Shown in pieces: positions 8,175 through 13,636 of a stretch of 64,000 nt of DNA. The notes below the pieces were generated by a model. It saw only the letters and a list, made by a program, of their open reading frames with translations, did no database searches and was not told the DNA's origin. The translations under genes and the position numbers were made by a program. This stretch comes from Halorussus vallis (GTDB lineage: Archaea > Halobacteriota > Halobacteria > Halobacteriales > Haladaptataceae): NCBI RefSeq assembly GCF_024138165.1, contig NZ_CP100000.1, positions 1,240,001-1,304,000 of the forward strand, in the 5' to 3' direction. How positions within the stretch are numbered: position 1 is the stretch's first letter; every line of letters starts with the position of its first letter.

Positions 8175-8381
8175 ACGGTCGTATCGCGGCCTGAACCGAT
8201 TTCCGTCTTCTTCTCTCTTCGCCTTCTTCTCGTCTTCTGGTCAACCGCCGCGACGCTCCGTCGGCCGGAGATATTAGGTCGGTCGATAGCATACACCACG
8301 GTCGATTATGCAACCGAATGGGGGAACTGACGTCGTGGGTCGTTCGACTCGAACCGCCGAGGAGCCGTTCGCGTGGTGGGG

Positions 8382-9662
8382 ATGAGCCGACGGGTTCGAC
8401 GTGGATTCGTGCTCGTCGTCGCGGGACTGGTCCTCGTCTCGGTCGCCTTCGGCGTGAGTTGGGCGGTCGCGCCCGACGCCAACAGGGTTTCGCAGGCGGC
8501 GAATCCGAACAACACGAGCGTGCTGGTCGGCGTCCAGGGGCCGGGACCTAACGGGAACGTGACCGCGCTCGACGGGTACGGGAACGTCCAGTGGAGCATC
8601 GGTAACATCATCAGCTACCAGAGCGTCGAGCGCCTCGACAACGGCTCGGTGCTCGCGTCGTTCGCCGCGGGCGACTACCAGAACTGCGGGCCGTACGAGT
8701 CGCCGTGCAAGCGCACCGGCATCCGAATCATCGACCCCAATCCACAACCCCGCGTGGTCTACCAGTGGAGCTACGCGGTCCGGACCCGCGAGGACAGCGA
8801 GGTACACGACGCCGAGATGCTCCCGTCGGGTAACGTGCTCGTGGCCGACATGGAGTACGAGAGCATCTTCGTGCTGAACCCGAAGACCCGCGAGCGCGTC
8901 TGGACGTGGAACGCGAGCCAGCACTACGACGCCCCGGCCGACCCGACCAAGCACGACTGGCTCCACCTGAACGACGTCGACCGCATCGGCGAGGGGCGCT
9001 ACCTCGTCTCGATTCGCAACAAGAACCAGCTCCTGATCGTCGAACGCGGCAAGGGCGTGACCGAGGTCATCAACGAGAACAGCGACCCGGGCGTCCTCGA
9101 CAAGCAACACAACCCCCACTGGCTCGGCGAGGGCGCGGTGCTAGTCGCCGACTCCGAGAACCACCGCATCGTCGAACTCCACGAGAACGAATCGACCGGA
9201 AAGTGGGAAGTGTCGTGGGCCGTCTCGAAGGTCGGCGGCCTCCACTTCGACTGGCCGCGGGACGCCGACCGCCTGCCGAACGGTCACACCTTCGTCACCG
9301 ACAGCCGGAACAACCGCGTGGTCGAGATTACCCGCAACGGGAGCGTCGTGGCGAGCTACACCGTTCCCTCGCTCCCCTACGAGGCCGACCGGCTCCCGTA
9401 CGGCGAGAGCGCCAGCGGGAACGTCGCCGCGTACGCGAACCCCCGGTCGACCGCCTCCGCCCCGCTCGGCGGCCAGGTCCCGGTGCTCTCGACGCTCCTC
9501 GCCGGCGCTCGCCACGTCGTCGCGCTCCCGTTCTGGGTGTCCGAGATCCACGTCGCGGCCGTCGGCGTCGCGGCCCTGCTGTGGCTCTGGGGCGGGTTCC
9601 TGCTCGTGCAGGAGGGCGTCCAGCGAGCGTCCGGCGGTCCGGGCGTCGCGGGGGAACGATAA
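8382..9662 (+). CDS. ASST-like (arylsulfotransferase-family) exported beta-propeller protein
   Basis: 426 aa from ATG 8382; an in-frame GTG lies 9 nt upstream. A positively charged N terminus and hydrophobic helix (residues about 5-27) act as signal anchor. Repeated blade-like motifs follow (ALDGYGNVQWSIG, VHDAEMLPSGNVLVAD, WLHLNDVDRIGEGRYLVSIR, HFDWPRDADRLPNGHTFVTDSRNNRVVEI), the pattern of the Arylsulfotran_2 family. A second hydrophobic helix lies near the C terminus (about 380-405). Several N-X-S/T sequons suggest a glycosylated outer-surface domain. A true sulfotransferase activity is not shown; archaeal members may be scaffolds. It is followed after 40 nt by a small zinc-finger gene. 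Confidence 0.8.
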   Translation: MSRRVRRGFVLVVAGLVLVSVAFGVSWAVAPDANRVSQAANPNNTSVLVGVQGPGPNGNVTALDGYGNVQWSIGNIISYQSVERLDNGSVLASFAAGDYQNCGPYESPCKRTGIRIIDPNPQPRVVYQWSYAVRTREDSEVHDAEMLPSGNVLVADMEYESIFVLNPKTRERVWTWNASQHYDAPADPTKHDWLHLNDVDRIGEGRYLVSIRNKNQLLIVERGKGVTEVINENSDPGVLDKQHNPHWLGEGAVLVADSENHRIVELHENESTGKWEVSWAVSKVGGLHFDWPRDADRLPNGHTFVTDSRNNRVVEITRNGSVVASYTVPSLPYEADRLPYGESASGNVAAYANPRSTASAPLGGQVPVLSTLLAGARHVVALPFWVSEIHVAAVGVAALLWLWGGFLLVQEGVQRASGGPGVAGER

Positions 9663-9867: not shown

Positions 9868-10155
9868 CTACTTCATCGTCACCCACGTCAGGAACGCGAG
9901 CGCGACGAGTTGCATTCCCCGGAGCACCAGCACCGCCCACTGGACCGTCGGGTCGCCGGAGTACAGCATCTTCATGCTGAAGAAGAAGTAGAGGGCAGTG
10001 ACGTTCTCCGCCAGCATGACCACCGCGAACGCCAGGAGGCCGGCCACGAGCGACGAACGGAACTTCCGGTAGTTGCGGACCCAGACGGCCGTCAGCAGCC
10101 CCAGCAGGACGATGTTGACCACCGCGAGGCCGCTCGCGAGTTGTATCGAACTCAT
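9868..10155 (-). CDS. Three-helix membrane protein downstream of ArsR-like regulator
   Basis: 95 aa with three predicted membrane spans (about 5-24, 35-58, 72-93). Its stop directly abuts the stop of the convergent zinc-finger gene. Its ATG overlaps by ATGA a possible 47-aa ORF, which in turn overlaps the ArsR-like regulator gene, so the three may be translated as a coupled unit. Pairing of a small winged-helix protein with a short membrane protein is common in haloarchaea (I associate this with the DUF7521 group, unverified). It may be a membrane partner or sensor for the regulator. Confidence 0.7.
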   Translation of the reverse strand: MSSIQLASGLAVVNIVLLGLLTAVWVRNYRKFRSSLVAGLLAFAVVMLAENVTALYFFFSMKMLYSGDPTVQWAVLVLRGMQLVALAFLTWVTMK

Positions 10156-10295
10156 CGGTGCACCTCCGGGCGCATCTCGGTCGTTCCGGCGTTCGTCCCG
10201 GTCGTTCTCGCGTCGGCGAGTCTCTCGGTGCCGGCGACTCTCTCCGTGGCGGTGGCGCTGTCGTGCGTGCGGTGCTGGGCGCGTGGGTCGGTCAT
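10152..10295 (-). CDS. Possible 47-aa coupled small ORF
   Basis: ATG at 10295 overlaps the regulator stop (ATGA at 10292-10295), and its TGA overlaps the start of the three-helix protein (ATGA at 10152-10155). The product (MTDPRAQHRTHDSATATERV...) is hydrophilic and Thr/Ala/Arg-rich, with no recognisable domain. GC at third positions is about 85 percent, like real genes here, but three AGA codons are unusual. It may be a genuine small protein or a chance frame through a 140-nt gap. Confidence 0.4.
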   Translation of the reverse strand: MTDPRAQHRTHDSATATERVAGTERLADARTTGTNAGTTEMRPEVHR

Positions 10296-10567
10296 TCTAT
10301 TTGCTCCATTATTTCCTCGAAGGCGTCGCGGTGCTGTTCGAACTGGTCGGTGAGGAAGTAGAGTTTCCCGTAGGAGTTCTCGCCCGGTTCGACCACGCCG
10401 TGGTCGGCGAGCATGTCGAGGTGGTGGCGAACCGTCTTGTACCGGACGTCGAGCGTTTCGGCGAGTTGATTCGCGTTTTGCGGGCGCTCGGAGAGGGCTC
10501 GAATGATTCGCGCGCGGTTCTCGCCGCCGCGGGTCGCCGTGAGCAGGTACCAGAGCGCCTTGTCCAT
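10292..10567 (-). CDS. ArsR-like winged-helix transcriptional regulator
   Basis: 91 aa from ATG 10567. The fold is a single winged helix: NRARIIRALSERPQNANQLAETLDVRYKTVRHHLDMLADHGVV spans the helix-turn-helix, followed by a beta wing (GKLYFLT). The C-terminal tail (FEQHRDAFEEIMEQIE) is probably a dimerisation helix. A TATA-like TTATAT at 10603-10608 lies right after the molybdoenzyme stop, about 36 nt before this start, so it can be transcribed independently of the upstream Met-rich/molybdoenzyme pair, although read-through is likely. It probably controls itself and the membrane protein downstream. Confidence 0.82.
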   Translation of the reverse strand: MDKALWYLLTATRGGENRARIIRALSERPQNANQLAETLDVRYKTVRHHLDMLADHGVVEPGENSYGKLYFLTDQFEQHRDAFEEIMEQIE

Positions 10568-10608: not shown

Positions 10609-12189
10609 CTACGGCTCGACGCGCCGACTGACCCAGCCGGTCGGCCCGCTGGGGAACGCCTGCCGGCGTTTCTTCGGCTGGAGCGTCCCAGTGCCGTCGG
10701 TGGCCCGGACTACGACCTCGTGGGAGTCGCTGGCCTCGTAGGTGTGCTCCCACTGGCGCCAGACGTCGTTGTCAGACTGCGTCTGGCCGCTCGTCGAGCT
10801 TCGCTCGGCGGTGTTGCCCGGAAGCGGTTCCGAAAGGTTCGCCTCCGTCCACGAGTCGCCGCCGTCGGTCGAGACTTCCACCTTCCGGATGCCCCGCGTG
10901 CCCGCGTAGGCGTGGCCGCCCACCTGGACTTTGCCCGCCTCGGGGCGGTTGATGGCGTGGAGCTTCGCCACCGTGTTGACCGGGCCGGTGCCGTGCCAAC
11001 CCCGCTTCTCCCAGTAGCCCTTCTGCTCCTGTTCTAAGACCTCTATCTTGTCGACCCACTTGACGTTGATCTCGCCCCAGTGGCCCGGCACCAGCAGTCG
11101 CACCGGCGCGCCGTGGCCCCGCGGGAGCGGGTCGCCGTTCATCTCGTAGGCCAGCAGGGCGTCTTCGAGCGCCGCCAGCGGGAACTCCTCGAAGTAGTCG
11201 TCGACCGCCCGGACCATCACGCAACACTGGTCGGGGAGTTCCTCCCACTCCAGGAGGTCGGTCACGGGCACGCCGGTCCAGAGCGCGGTGTCCATCTTCT
11301 TGCCGTTCAGCCCCTCGCCGACGCACCGGAGGGTCATGAACCGCCGCTCGGCGGCCATCCCGGTGAGGTCGTCGTAGTCGAACTCCCGTTGCTCGGGCAC
11401 GGCGCCGGTCAGCGCGAGCGTCCAGTCGTCGGGGTCGACGACCGGGTTGACGCTGTTAATGTCGACCTGGTAGAAGTTCCCGCTCACGAGCCCTTCGAGG
11501 CCGTCGACCGCGAGCGACTTCGACTCGGCCTCCGAGAGCAGGCCCGCGACGTCGGGTGAAGCGGTCCCGGGTTCGGCGTTCGAGTCCCGACTCGCGCTCG
11601 GGGCCTCCGTGGCCGGGGCGCGCCGGCGACCGAGGACGACGCCGAGGCTGCCGATGCCGAGCGCGGCGGCCACGGCCCCCAGGACGCGCCGTCTGGCGGG
11701 CGAGGACGACGCGTCGTCCTCGCCCGCCCCGCCGCTCTCGCCGGTCCAGCTATCGCTTAGTCCACCAGCGAGTCGAGCGAGTCCGACGACGACGCCCGCG
11801 GCCACCCCGGCGACGACGCCGGGGACGGCCGCGCCGGTCAGCGCGAGCGCCACCGCGAGGCCGGCCATCGCCGCGACCGGCGCGGCCGGGACCGCGGCGC
11901 GGTCGGCCAGTTCGACGGCGACGAGCGCCGCGACGCCGAACAGTCCGGCCGTGAGCACGAGCGCCAGCAGGAAGCTCAACTGGTGACCAAGGTCGCCGAG
12001 TACGCGAATCGACCAGGCGACCACCGCGCCCGGGGTGAGTCGGACGACGAGGGCGCTGACCGGCGCGGCGGCGAACGCCGGGGTGAACCCGGCCGCCGCG
12101 TACGACCCGGCGACGGACGCGACGCCCGCCGCGAGCGCGACGACGCCCTCGCCGACCGTCGGCCGGCCGCGTCCGTCGTCGCGGGTCAC
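10609..12189 (-). CDS. Membrane-anchored sulfite-oxidase-family molybdopterin oxidoreductase
   Basis: 526 aa from GTG 12189, which lies 1 nt after the stop of the methionine-rich gene. Residues 1-140 hold about five hydrophobic helices, another spans about 168-187 (RRRVLG start), then the catalytic part. FMTLRCVGEG carries Cys289, the expected molybdenum ligand; HGAPVRLLVPGHWGEINVKWVDKIEV is the family signature; a C-terminal dimerisation-type beta domain follows (VQVGGHAYAGTRGIRKVEVSTDGGDSW). The family includes sulfite oxidase and the protein-methionine-sulfoxide reductase MsrP/YedY. The membrane part shows only one His, so it is not a YedZ/MsrQ-like haem domain. A 15-residue loop (NTAERSSTSGQTQSD) looks inserted. 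Substrate unknown; context suggests methionine sulfoxide. Confidence 0.88.
   Translation of the reverse strand: MTRDDGRGRPTVGEGVVALAAGVASVAGSYAAAGFTPAFAAAPVSALVVRLTPGAVVAWSIRVLGDLGHQLSFLLALVLTAGLFGVAALVAVELADRAAVPAAPVAAMAGLAVALALTGAAVPGVVAGVAAGVVVGLARLAGGLSDSWTGESGGAGEDDASSSPARRRVLGAVAAALGIGSLGVVLGRRRAPATEAPSASRDSNAEPGTASPDVAGLLSEAESKSLAVDGLEGLVSGNFYQVDINSVNPVVDPDDWTLALTGAVPEQREFDYDDLTGMAAERRFMTLRCVGEGLNGKKMDTALWTGVPVTDLLEWEELPDQCCVMVRAVDDYFEEFPLAALEDALLAYEMNGDPLPRGHGAPVRLLVPGHWGEINVKWVDKIEVLEQEQKGYWEKRGWHGTGPVNTVAKLHAINRPEAGKVQVGGHAYAGTRGIRKVEVSTDGGDSWTEANLSEPLPGNTAERSSTSGQTQSDNDVWRQWEHTYEASDSHEVVVRATDGTGTLQPKKRRQAFPSGPTGWVSRRVEP
10789..10814 (-). repeat. Intragenic palindromic repeat, copy 1 (in molybdoenzyme)
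   Basis: A 26-nt sequence, shared with 43864-43889 apart from one base, encodes T-A-E-R-S-S-T-S in the molybdoenzyme. It contains a hairpin cgtcgagc-ttc-gctcggcg (10792-10810) with one wobble mismatch. It sits in a surface loop between the dimerisation-domain strands and is in frame. Its core, GCGAAGC on the coding strand, is known as an unusually stable DNA mini-hairpin. Confidence 0.65.
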
Positions 12190-12190
12190 G

Positions 12191-12826
12191 TCACGACCTC
12201 CGTCGGACCACCAGGACGGCCCCCAGTAGCGCGACCACCGCGGCGCCGACGCCGAATCCGGGCGCGAACGCGCTCGCGCCGCCCTCACCGTCGGTCGTCT
12301 CGTCGGCCATCGCGGCCTCGCTCGTGGCGTCGTCCATCATCTCGGTCGTCCCGTCCGACATCCCGTCGGTGGTCGACCCGTCGGACATCCCGCCGTCCGG
12401 GCACGCAGTGGTCGTGGCCATCCCGTCGTCCATCGTGGTTTCGGTCCCCATCATCGTCTCGTTGCCCATCGACTCGTTGCTCATGGACTCGTTCATCGAA
12501 TGGGTGGTCGTTCCGCTCATCGACCCGTTGGCCATCGACTCGTTGTTCATCGACTCGCTCATCGTGGTCTCGTTGGCCATCATCGTCTCGTTGCCCATCG
12601 TCTCGTTCCCCATCCCGTCCATCGTGGTCGTCTCGCCGGCCATCTCGTCCATCGTGGTCGTCTCGCCGGCCATCTCGTCCATCGTGGTCGTCTCGCCGGC
12701 CATCTCGTCCATCGTCGTCTGGCATTGGACGGTCGCCTGGTCCGCCGCGCCGCCCGCCGCGGCGAGCGGTGCGAGACTGACCGTCAACACGACCATCGCG
12801 ACCGTAATCGGAGTTGCTGAGCGCAT
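12191..12826 (-). CDS. Methionine-rich PGF-CTERM surface protein
   Basis: 211 aa. Signal peptide about residues 1-25, a low-complexity middle, then PGF (189-191), a hydrophobic helix and RRRS: the PGF-CTERM signal for archaeosortase processing and lipid anchoring. The middle has 27 Met in about 160 residues, including a TTMDEMAGET unit repeated three to four times and GNETM/NESM units that make eight N-X-S/T sequons. Two Cys remain (QCQTT, TACPD). The gene is directly upstream of the molybdoenzyme (1-nt gap), so co-expression is near certain. A sacrificial oxidant sink repaired by that enzyme is the favoured inference; copper binding by Met clusters is the main alternative. Confidence 0.88.
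   Translation of the reverse strand: MRSATPITVAMVVLTVSLAPLAAAGGAADQATVQCQTTMDEMAGETTTMDEMAGETTTMDEMAGETTTMDGMGNETMGNETMMANETTMSESMNNESMANGSMSGTTTHSMNESMSNESMGNETMMGTETTMDDGMATTTACPDGGMSDGSTTDGMSDGTTEMMDDATSEAAMADETTDGEGGASAFAPGFGVGAAVVALLGAVLVVRRRS
12631..12720 (-). repeat. Three tandem 30-bp units in the Met-rich gene
   Basis: A 30-nt unit encoding TTMDEMAGET occurs three times head to tail. The first two copies are identical and the third (12691-12720) differs only in its last bases. Near-identity at DNA level points to recent duplication and probable length variation between strains. Confidence 0.9.
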
Positions 12827-12849
12827 ACGTCTACCGGCGACGGACGACG

Positions 12850-12857
12850 TAAAAGGG
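12850..12857 (-). promoter_or_regulatory. TATA-like box for the Met-rich/molybdoenzyme operon
   Basis: CTTTTACG on the minus strand lies about 27 nt before the ATG at 12826, the spacing expected for a leaderless haloarchaeal transcript. Confidence 0.55.
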
Positions 12858-12979
12858 ATTTTTCGAACTCTCGCCCACTTCGTTCCGACTCGGACCCACT
12901 CCGTTCCAAATCTCTTCCAGTATCGTGACGCTCCCCGAAAACGGAATCTAGTGGTCGAAGATGCGCCGACGGTCGGCGA

Positions 12980-13636
12980 CTACCCGCCTCGCTCGGGCGC
13001 GGTCATCGCCCGGTAGGCGGGGCCGACGAGCAACGCGACGGCCACCGCGCCCGCGGCCGCGATGAGCTCCCACCCGACCGCGTCCAGCCCCGAGACGGTC
13101 AGGTTCTCCAACGAACTCCCGGCCAGCACGGCCGCGACCGTCCAGGGCACCTCGCCCAGCGCGGTGCCCGCGACGAACGCAGGCGTCGAGACGCCGGAGA
13201 GCCCCGCGGCGGCCGACACCGGGTCGGAGGGCGCGGGGGCGAGTCGCGAGGCGACCATCCCCCGCAGGTCGCCGGTCGCCGCGAAGAATCGCTCGCCGGT
13301 CGCCGCGAGGCGGGCGACGGGTCCGGTACCGCTCCCGAACCGGCGCGCAAATAGGAACGGCAGGAGCGCGCTCGCGGTCGTTCCGGCGAGCGCGACCGGG
13401 AAGCCGACCGTCGGCCCGTAGCCGTATCCGGCCACGACGGCCACGAGCGTCGTCGGCCACGCCAGCAGGGGTCGGACGAGGTAGACTCCGGCGAGCAGCG
13501 CGCCGAAGACGAACGGTCTGTCGGCGACCGCTCGAACCGTCCCGAGGAGGAAGTCGGGCGAGGCCAGCAGGCTCGCCGCCGCCACGACCGCCAGCAGGGC
13601 GAGTCCGCCGACCTGCCGGCGCACAAAGTCGGTCAT
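12980..13636 (-). CDS. VTT-domain (TVP38/DedA-like) membrane protein
   Basis: 218 aa from ATG 13636. Hydrophobic helices alternate with a central cytoplasmic-type stretch; the region FGALLAGVYLVRPLLAWPTTLVAVVAGYGYGPTVGFPVALAGTTASALLPFLFARRFG matches the VTT/SNARE-associated signature (G-x-G-P re-entrant loop followed by glycine-rich helix). Members are thought to act in lipid flipping or envelope upkeep. It is transcribed divergently from the next gene across an 82-nt spacer. The substrate is unknown. The long open frame upstream of 13636 is a shadow of the neighbour on the other strand. Confidence 0.8.
   Translation of the reverse strand: MTDFVRRQVGGLALLAVVAAASLLASPDFLLGTVRAVADRPFVFGALLAGVYLVRPLLAWPTTLVAVVAGYGYGPTVGFPVALAGTTASALLPFLFARRFGSGTGPVARLAATGERFFAATGDLRGMVASRLAPAPSDPVSAAAGLSGVSTPAFVAGTALGEVPWTVAAVLAGSSLENLTVSGLDAVGWELIAAAGAVAVALLVGPAYRAMTAPERGG

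Follow-up and report, generated by a model that had tools for sequence, protein, structure and literature searches.

The closest described systems are bacterial. MrpX/BcrX and YedYZ (MsrPQ), from Azospira and Brucella, are described as an exported methionine-rich protein, a molybdoenzyme and a dedicated regulator (PMC8315932). BcrX, an MXKDX protein, is co-transcribed with MsrPQ homologues and induced by HOCl, and constitutes a bacterial precedent (PMC8315932). MsrP has been reported to act well on methionine sulfoxide in the acidic/polar peptide QWGAGM(O)QAEED (PMC7402097). In archaea, according to a 2018 review, enzymes of the sulfite oxidase family are widespread but have no known part in reducing methionine sulfoxide (PMC6211008). 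No archaeal pair of a methionine-rich protein and a molybdoenzyme was found in the open-licence papers searched, in line with an earlier note on this DNA, which knew of no archaeal version.

Such a pair is encoded on the minus strand of a 64,000-nucleotide stretch of the Halorussus vallis genome (the whole stretch analyzed, hereafter the window). The first gene (12191..12826, minus strand) encodes a methionine-rich exported surface protein of 211 aa, P0001, with a signal peptide, an acidic low-complexity methionine-rich region and a PGF-CTERM anchor. Methionine accounts for 27 of the 163 residues of its exposed part (16.6%, against 1.5% in the genome background; binomial p ~3e-20), at spacings of 1–11 residues, 5 being the commonest. 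The exposed part also contains 2 Cys, 1 His, 34 Asp/Glu and 8 N-glycosylation sequons, and none of its 163 residues is Lys or Arg. The PGF-CTERM at the C-terminus exceeded the cut-offs of two curated models (TIGR04126, 30.9 bits against 24.5; PF18204, 22.1 against 18.8), and the description in the earlier note of a 211-aa exported protein with about 17% methionine in its exposed part and a PGF-CTERM was thereby borne out. The window and 13 sampled stretches of 20 kb, together 324 kb of this genome, showed no second plausibly coding ORF of similar methionine density. P0001 shares with MrpX/BcrX its small size, its export and its methionine-rich repeats, and is likewise encoded together with a molybdoenzyme of the sulfite oxidase family. 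Unlike them, it is anchored, acidic and devoid of Lys, and its score with the MXKDX/MrpX family model TIGR02953 was 15.5 bits, below the cut-off of 41.

The second gene (10609..12189, minus strand; GTG start) encodes P0002, a membrane-anchored molybdoenzyme of 526 aa with the sulfite oxidase fold (PF00174 and PF03404). A single base separates the TGA stop codon of P0001 from this GTG, which confirmed the gap of one nucleotide that had been claimed between the two genes. A GGAGG lies shortly upstream of the GTG and, since it sits inside the end of P0001, the two genes may be translationally coupled. In P0002, the N-terminal helices, an RRR motif and the last membrane helix are followed by the Oxidored_molyb (PF00174, 1e-37; 129.7 bits against a gathering score of 24) and Mo-co_dimer (PF03404) domains, which probably lie outside the cell. 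The Mo-coordinating Cys, C289, is invariant. The genome encodes two further PF00174 proteins (L001 and L002); both were put aside, showing no N-terminal membrane region comparable to that of P0002.

The family placement given in the earlier note, sulfite oxidase/MsrP-YedY, held for the superfamily (PF00174) but not for MsrP/YedY. P0002 fails the curated MsrP equivalog NF003767, scoring 51.7 bits against a cut-off of 207; its relatives scored 45–56 bits with this model and E. coli MsrP 504. All of the sulfite dehydrogenase equivalogs were failed as well (SorT 103 of 570 bits, SoxC 98 of 420, SorA 88 of 600). Judged by these curated models, P0002 is nearer to the sulfite dehydrogenase side of the family than to MsrP/YedY. 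The best matches of its predicted structure (mean pLDDT 80.5) were also sulfite dehydrogenases (E 4e-20 and above, against ~3e-9 for MsrP), a gap due in part to the lack of the dimer domain in MsrP.

The active site was compared in a sequence-only alignment with annotated sulfite oxidases, SoxC, actinobacterial relatives and E. coli MsrP. The Arg motif of sulfite oxidases (VRNHFPSP, VCHRNDIP, ERHHAGVP) is replaced in P0002 by FYQVDINSVNP, CAGNGR is replaced by CVGE, and W398, invariant in a 30-sequence alignment, aligns with the active-site Tyr. In sulfite oxidases, the Arg motif, CAGNGR and the Tyr have a role in sulfite binding. The replacing segment (FYxVD...P) resembles FYEFGLDKADP of MsrP, and the MsrP-like FY...P and RCV are both present in P0002. 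By this alignment, P0002 is without the sulfite-site signature and does not look like an ordinary sulfite oxidase. With E. coli MsrP (YedY) it shares the Oxidored_molyb fold, the RCV around the Mo-Cys and the FY...DP motif (31% identity over 156 columns), but MsrP has neither the Mo-co_dimer domain nor the membrane helices. With sulfite oxidase, SorA, SorT and SoxC it shares the fold and the Mo-co_dimer domain, but not the three sulfite-site elements, all replaced, and the curated models failed. Oxidation of sulfite at the surface by P0002, with the methionine-rich protein as a structural partner, would agree with SorT, SoxC and SorA giving the best curated scores (88–103 bits) and with the structural matches; those scores are far under cut-offs of 420–600, the Arg motif, CAGNGR and Tyr are gone, and we regard such a role as very improbable.

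The nearest bacterial relatives of P0002 examined were actinobacterial membrane molybdopterin oxidoreductases encoded beside fasciclin proteins, for which no description of function was found. These enzymes (Rhodococcus, Streptomyces plasmids) resemble P0002 in having an N-terminal hydrophobic region plus the catalytic domain, FYR(I/V)D...P and a Trp at the Tyr position, and an exported-type partner is encoded next door, in one case also near a sigma factor gene. They differ in that the partner is a fasciclin-domain protein and not a methionine-rich one. Two of these membrane molybdoenzymes beside fasciclin-domain proteins (L307 2450-4909 and L308 3296-5669) possibly belong to the same functional theme.

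The electron route was considered as well. A search of the H. vallis genome gave no MsrQ-type haem protein (no PF01794 match at E <= 0.001). The membrane helices of P0002 contain no His conserved in the 30-sequence alignment, and a haem role for them was dropped for this reason. The genome also encodes MsrA and MsrB. Compared with the enzyme of the MrpX/BcrX system, P0002 is of a different subfamily, which has membrane helices of its own and a dimer domain, and an MsrQ-type protein was not found. The analogy drawn in the earlier note with MrpX and a methionine sulfoxide reductase therefore stands in part: the precedent (PMC8315932) fits and the pair recurs, but P0002 falls short of the curated MsrP model (52 of 207 bits), and the genome search gave no MsrQ-type partner. 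The haloarchaeal unit may function in the manner of the MrpX system, although none of the curated models tested places it there.

Lack of the pair in other genomes had been named as evidence against this idea; the pair recurs in many haloarchaeal genera. A search for the enzyme in 391 haloarchaeal genomes gave 235 with a match at 1e-60, and the upstream gene was read at 121 non-redundant enzyme loci, a sample that leans to closer relatives because it was chosen from the higher-scoring matches. Methionine-rich upstream ORFs were picked by same-strand methionine density; gene picking by GC3 was replaced, as it misread some of these ORFs as antisense genes. A methionine-rich exported anchored protein was encoded directly upstream of the enzyme at 18 of the 121 loci. 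Eleven of these have a C-terminal PGF-CTERM or similar helix (the window locus L012, L014, L015, L016, L019, L020, L034, L079, L089, L099 and L152) and seven a Tat lipoprotein anchor (L112, L125, L129, L134, L147, L148 and L153). Four more pairs were obtained with a methionine-rich query (L173, L178, L207 and L208), and the resulting 22 loci span seven family-level groups (f1, f3, f4, f5, f7, f8 and f10). Most orthologues of the enzyme are without a methionine-rich partner. In a second scan with organism names, covering 80 enzyme loci and overlapping partly with the 121-locus sample, 13 were pure methionine-rich cases, from Halorussus, Haladaptatus, Halomicrococcus, Halonotius, Halorientalis, Halobellus, Halostella, Halobaculum, Natronomonas and two further lineages. 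On the enzyme tree, the methionine-rich trait showed at least 15 changes (a raw count), and would therefore have been gained or lost many times. Together with the two anchor types, this argues that composition, and not one inherited gene, tracks the enzyme.

Seven more enzyme loci carried a Tat lipoprotein with a shorter methionine-rich linker and either spondin_N (L026, L030, L036 and L038) or DUF7482 (L024, L149 and L150). The spondin_N/Met-linker lipoproteins occupy the place of the pure methionine-rich protein upstream of the enzyme. In Natrinema and relatives (L024, L149, L150 and L154), the same slot holds a DUF7482 lipoprotein with or without a methionine-rich linker.

Downstream of P0002, the third gene of the unit (10292..10567, minus strand) encodes a winged-HTH (ArsR-like) protein of 91 aa, the Pfam assignment (HTH_20/HTH_5) being made on a relative, and the fourth (9868..10155, minus strand) a small membrane protein of 95 aa with no Pfam match, presumably DUF7521. 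An HTH protein thus adjoins the haloarchaeal unit, whereas the MrpX/BcrX system has an ECF sigma/anti-sigma pair. At 18 of the 22 methionine-rich loci, the genes for the HTH and small membrane proteins come immediately after the enzyme gene, and at three more they are nearby; at the 22nd (L173), they are visible in a wider stretch (L209). The pair was thus found near 21 of the 22, compared with some 44 of the 104 other enzyme loci, and at all 13 of the named methionine-rich loci. A pairwise test corrected for relatedness pointed in the same direction (~5:1) and was not significant (p ~0.2). Other genes were noted around the unit. A VTT (DedA-type) membrane protein is encoded upstream (window 12980-13636), as at 7 of the 22 methionine-rich loci and 22 of the 104 others. 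An Arylsulfotransferase/NHL-like protein is encoded on the opposite strand (window 8373-9662) and also near several related loci.

Upstream of the P0001 gene, on the same strand, lie two operator-like repeats, GGAACGGAGTGGG (12895..12907), part of a recurring upstream block, and GGAACGAAGTGGG (12874..12886), 21 bp from the first, followed by a BRE/TATA-like core, TTCGAAAAATCCCTTTTACG (12848..12867), for which relatives carry a comparable sequence, similarly placed. The recurring block consists of GGAACGGAGT-type repeats or ATTCTAGAAC, followed, ~30-45 nt ahead of the start of the methionine-rich gene, by a TTCGAAAAATCCCTTTTA-like core. Within the window, GGAACGRAGTGGG (<=1 mismatch) occurs only at 12895-12907 and 12874-12886. 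GAACGGA was found 18 times at 34 methionine-rich/Met-linker loci, at least one of which did not contribute an upstream stretch, whereas mononucleotide shuffles gave an expectation of 0.4. TCTAGAA was present at 6 of these 34 loci, at 9 of 37 other loci with the HTH pair and at none of 58 loci without it. These counts are descriptive, because the motifs were picked after viewing the sequences and many of the loci are related. The repeats may be the operator of the adjacent HTH protein.

The ArsR-like fold of the HTH protein is one used by metal sensors, and spaced methionines are ligands of soft metals. The acidic methionine-rich chain might then bind Cu(I)/Ag(I) extracellularly, with the unit serving in a metal stress response. 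Three observations make this decidedly unlikely: the exposed part of P0001 has only 1 His and 2 Cys, the HTH protein of the window lacks Cys, and no metal transporter or copper protein recurred beside the methionine-rich loci inspected.

The same 391 genomes were also searched from the methionine-rich side. P0001 returned mostly PGF-CTERM tails and was replaced as a class-wide query by a synthetic methionine-rich sequence without this tail, the better-scoring hits being inspected. Of 20 methionine-dense hits inspected (>=8 Met per 40 residues), 13 adjoined the enzyme, as did two less dense ones. Among the others, L174 and L177 are methionine-rich Tat lipoproteins encoded next to the HTH pair, with no enzyme in the ~5 kb examined on each side. 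L188 is a Met-linker spondin lipoprotein that stands alone with no enzyme nearby, and no related neighbour was seen for the methionine-dense L179, L323, L324 and L334, L323 being perhaps not a real gene. The association between methionine-dense protein and enzyme is therefore strong, but not exclusive. Some of these proteins deserve separate mention. Methionine-rich Tat lipoproteins with the HTH pair and no molybdoenzyme nearby are found at L204 4822-5169 and L205 5041-5313. At L324 2241-2642, a methionine-dense lipoprotein with MTEDGMDDG repeats adjoins a small-multidrug-resistance-like gene, the enzyme being absent.

The orthologues without a methionine-rich partner, and the two methionine-rich lipoproteins that keep the HTH pair with no enzyme nearby, would be expected if the genes shared a stress regulon and were not enzyme and substrate. 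The methionine-rich protein would then soak up oxidant and be replaced, and the molybdoenzyme would repair other surface proteins or reduce another S- or N-oxide. The strong adjacency, the one-base spacing in the window and the recurrence with different anchors favor a direct link, and we consider the shared regulon rather unlikely. Functionless repeats are a further alternative: surface proteins of haloarchaea have acidic Thr/Asp/Ser repeats that serve as spacers or glycosylation stems, and slippage would have expanded methionine repeats. The MDDDS and MTDDS repeats do look recently expanded, and similar repeats with little methionine exist (L314); the clustering of the methionine-dense versions beside the enzyme across seven family groups makes drift of this kind hardly credible.

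The reading we prefer, and hold to be just about probable, is that the unit would combine a methionine redox sink anchored at the surface with an enzyme for its repair, an archaeal analogue, of different construction, of the MrpX/BcrX–MsrP hypochlorite sink. The methionine-rich protein would be exported and held at the outer face of the membrane, by PGF-CTERM in the window and by a lipid anchor elsewhere, and its acidic, methionine-dense chain would be oxidized by hypohalous acids or other oxidants instead of other surface proteins. The membrane molybdoenzyme, with its active site outward, would turn the methionine sulfoxides back into methionine, drawing electrons from the membrane along a route other than MsrQ. 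Control of the unit through the upstream repeats would fall to the adjacent HTH protein, perhaps together with the small membrane protein. Composition, anchoring, spacing, recurrence with different anchors, the lost sulfite-site signature and the bacterial precedent argue for the sink, as do the hits from the methionine-rich side, the HTH pair at most methionine-rich loci, the shared upstream motif, the MsrP-like FY...P and RCV and the reported action of MsrP on an acidic/polar peptide. Against it count the failed MsrP model, the predicted fold nearer to sulfite dehydrogenases, the search that gave no PF01794 protein, the lack of a conserved helix His, the majority of orthologues without a methionine-rich partner, the methionine-dense proteins without an enzyme nearby (L174, L177, L179, L188, L323, L324 and L334) and the non-significant relatedness-corrected test of methionine-rich protein and HTH pair.

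More tentatively, the membrane molybdoenzyme subfamily common to haloarchaea and actinobacteria might be an MsrQ-independent extracytoplasmic sulfoxide reductase with a dedicated regulator and exchangeable anchored partners (methionine-rich sinks, spondin- or DUF7482-domain Met-linker lipoproteins, fasciclin proteins); we see this as possible, although on balance doubtful. If true, it would represent a separately built extracytoplasmic methionine-repair system, new for archaea. If the pair works as proposed, it would give extracellular methionine repair to the haloarchaea, dwellers of halide-rich sunlit brines, and would suggest a function for a large enzyme subfamily.
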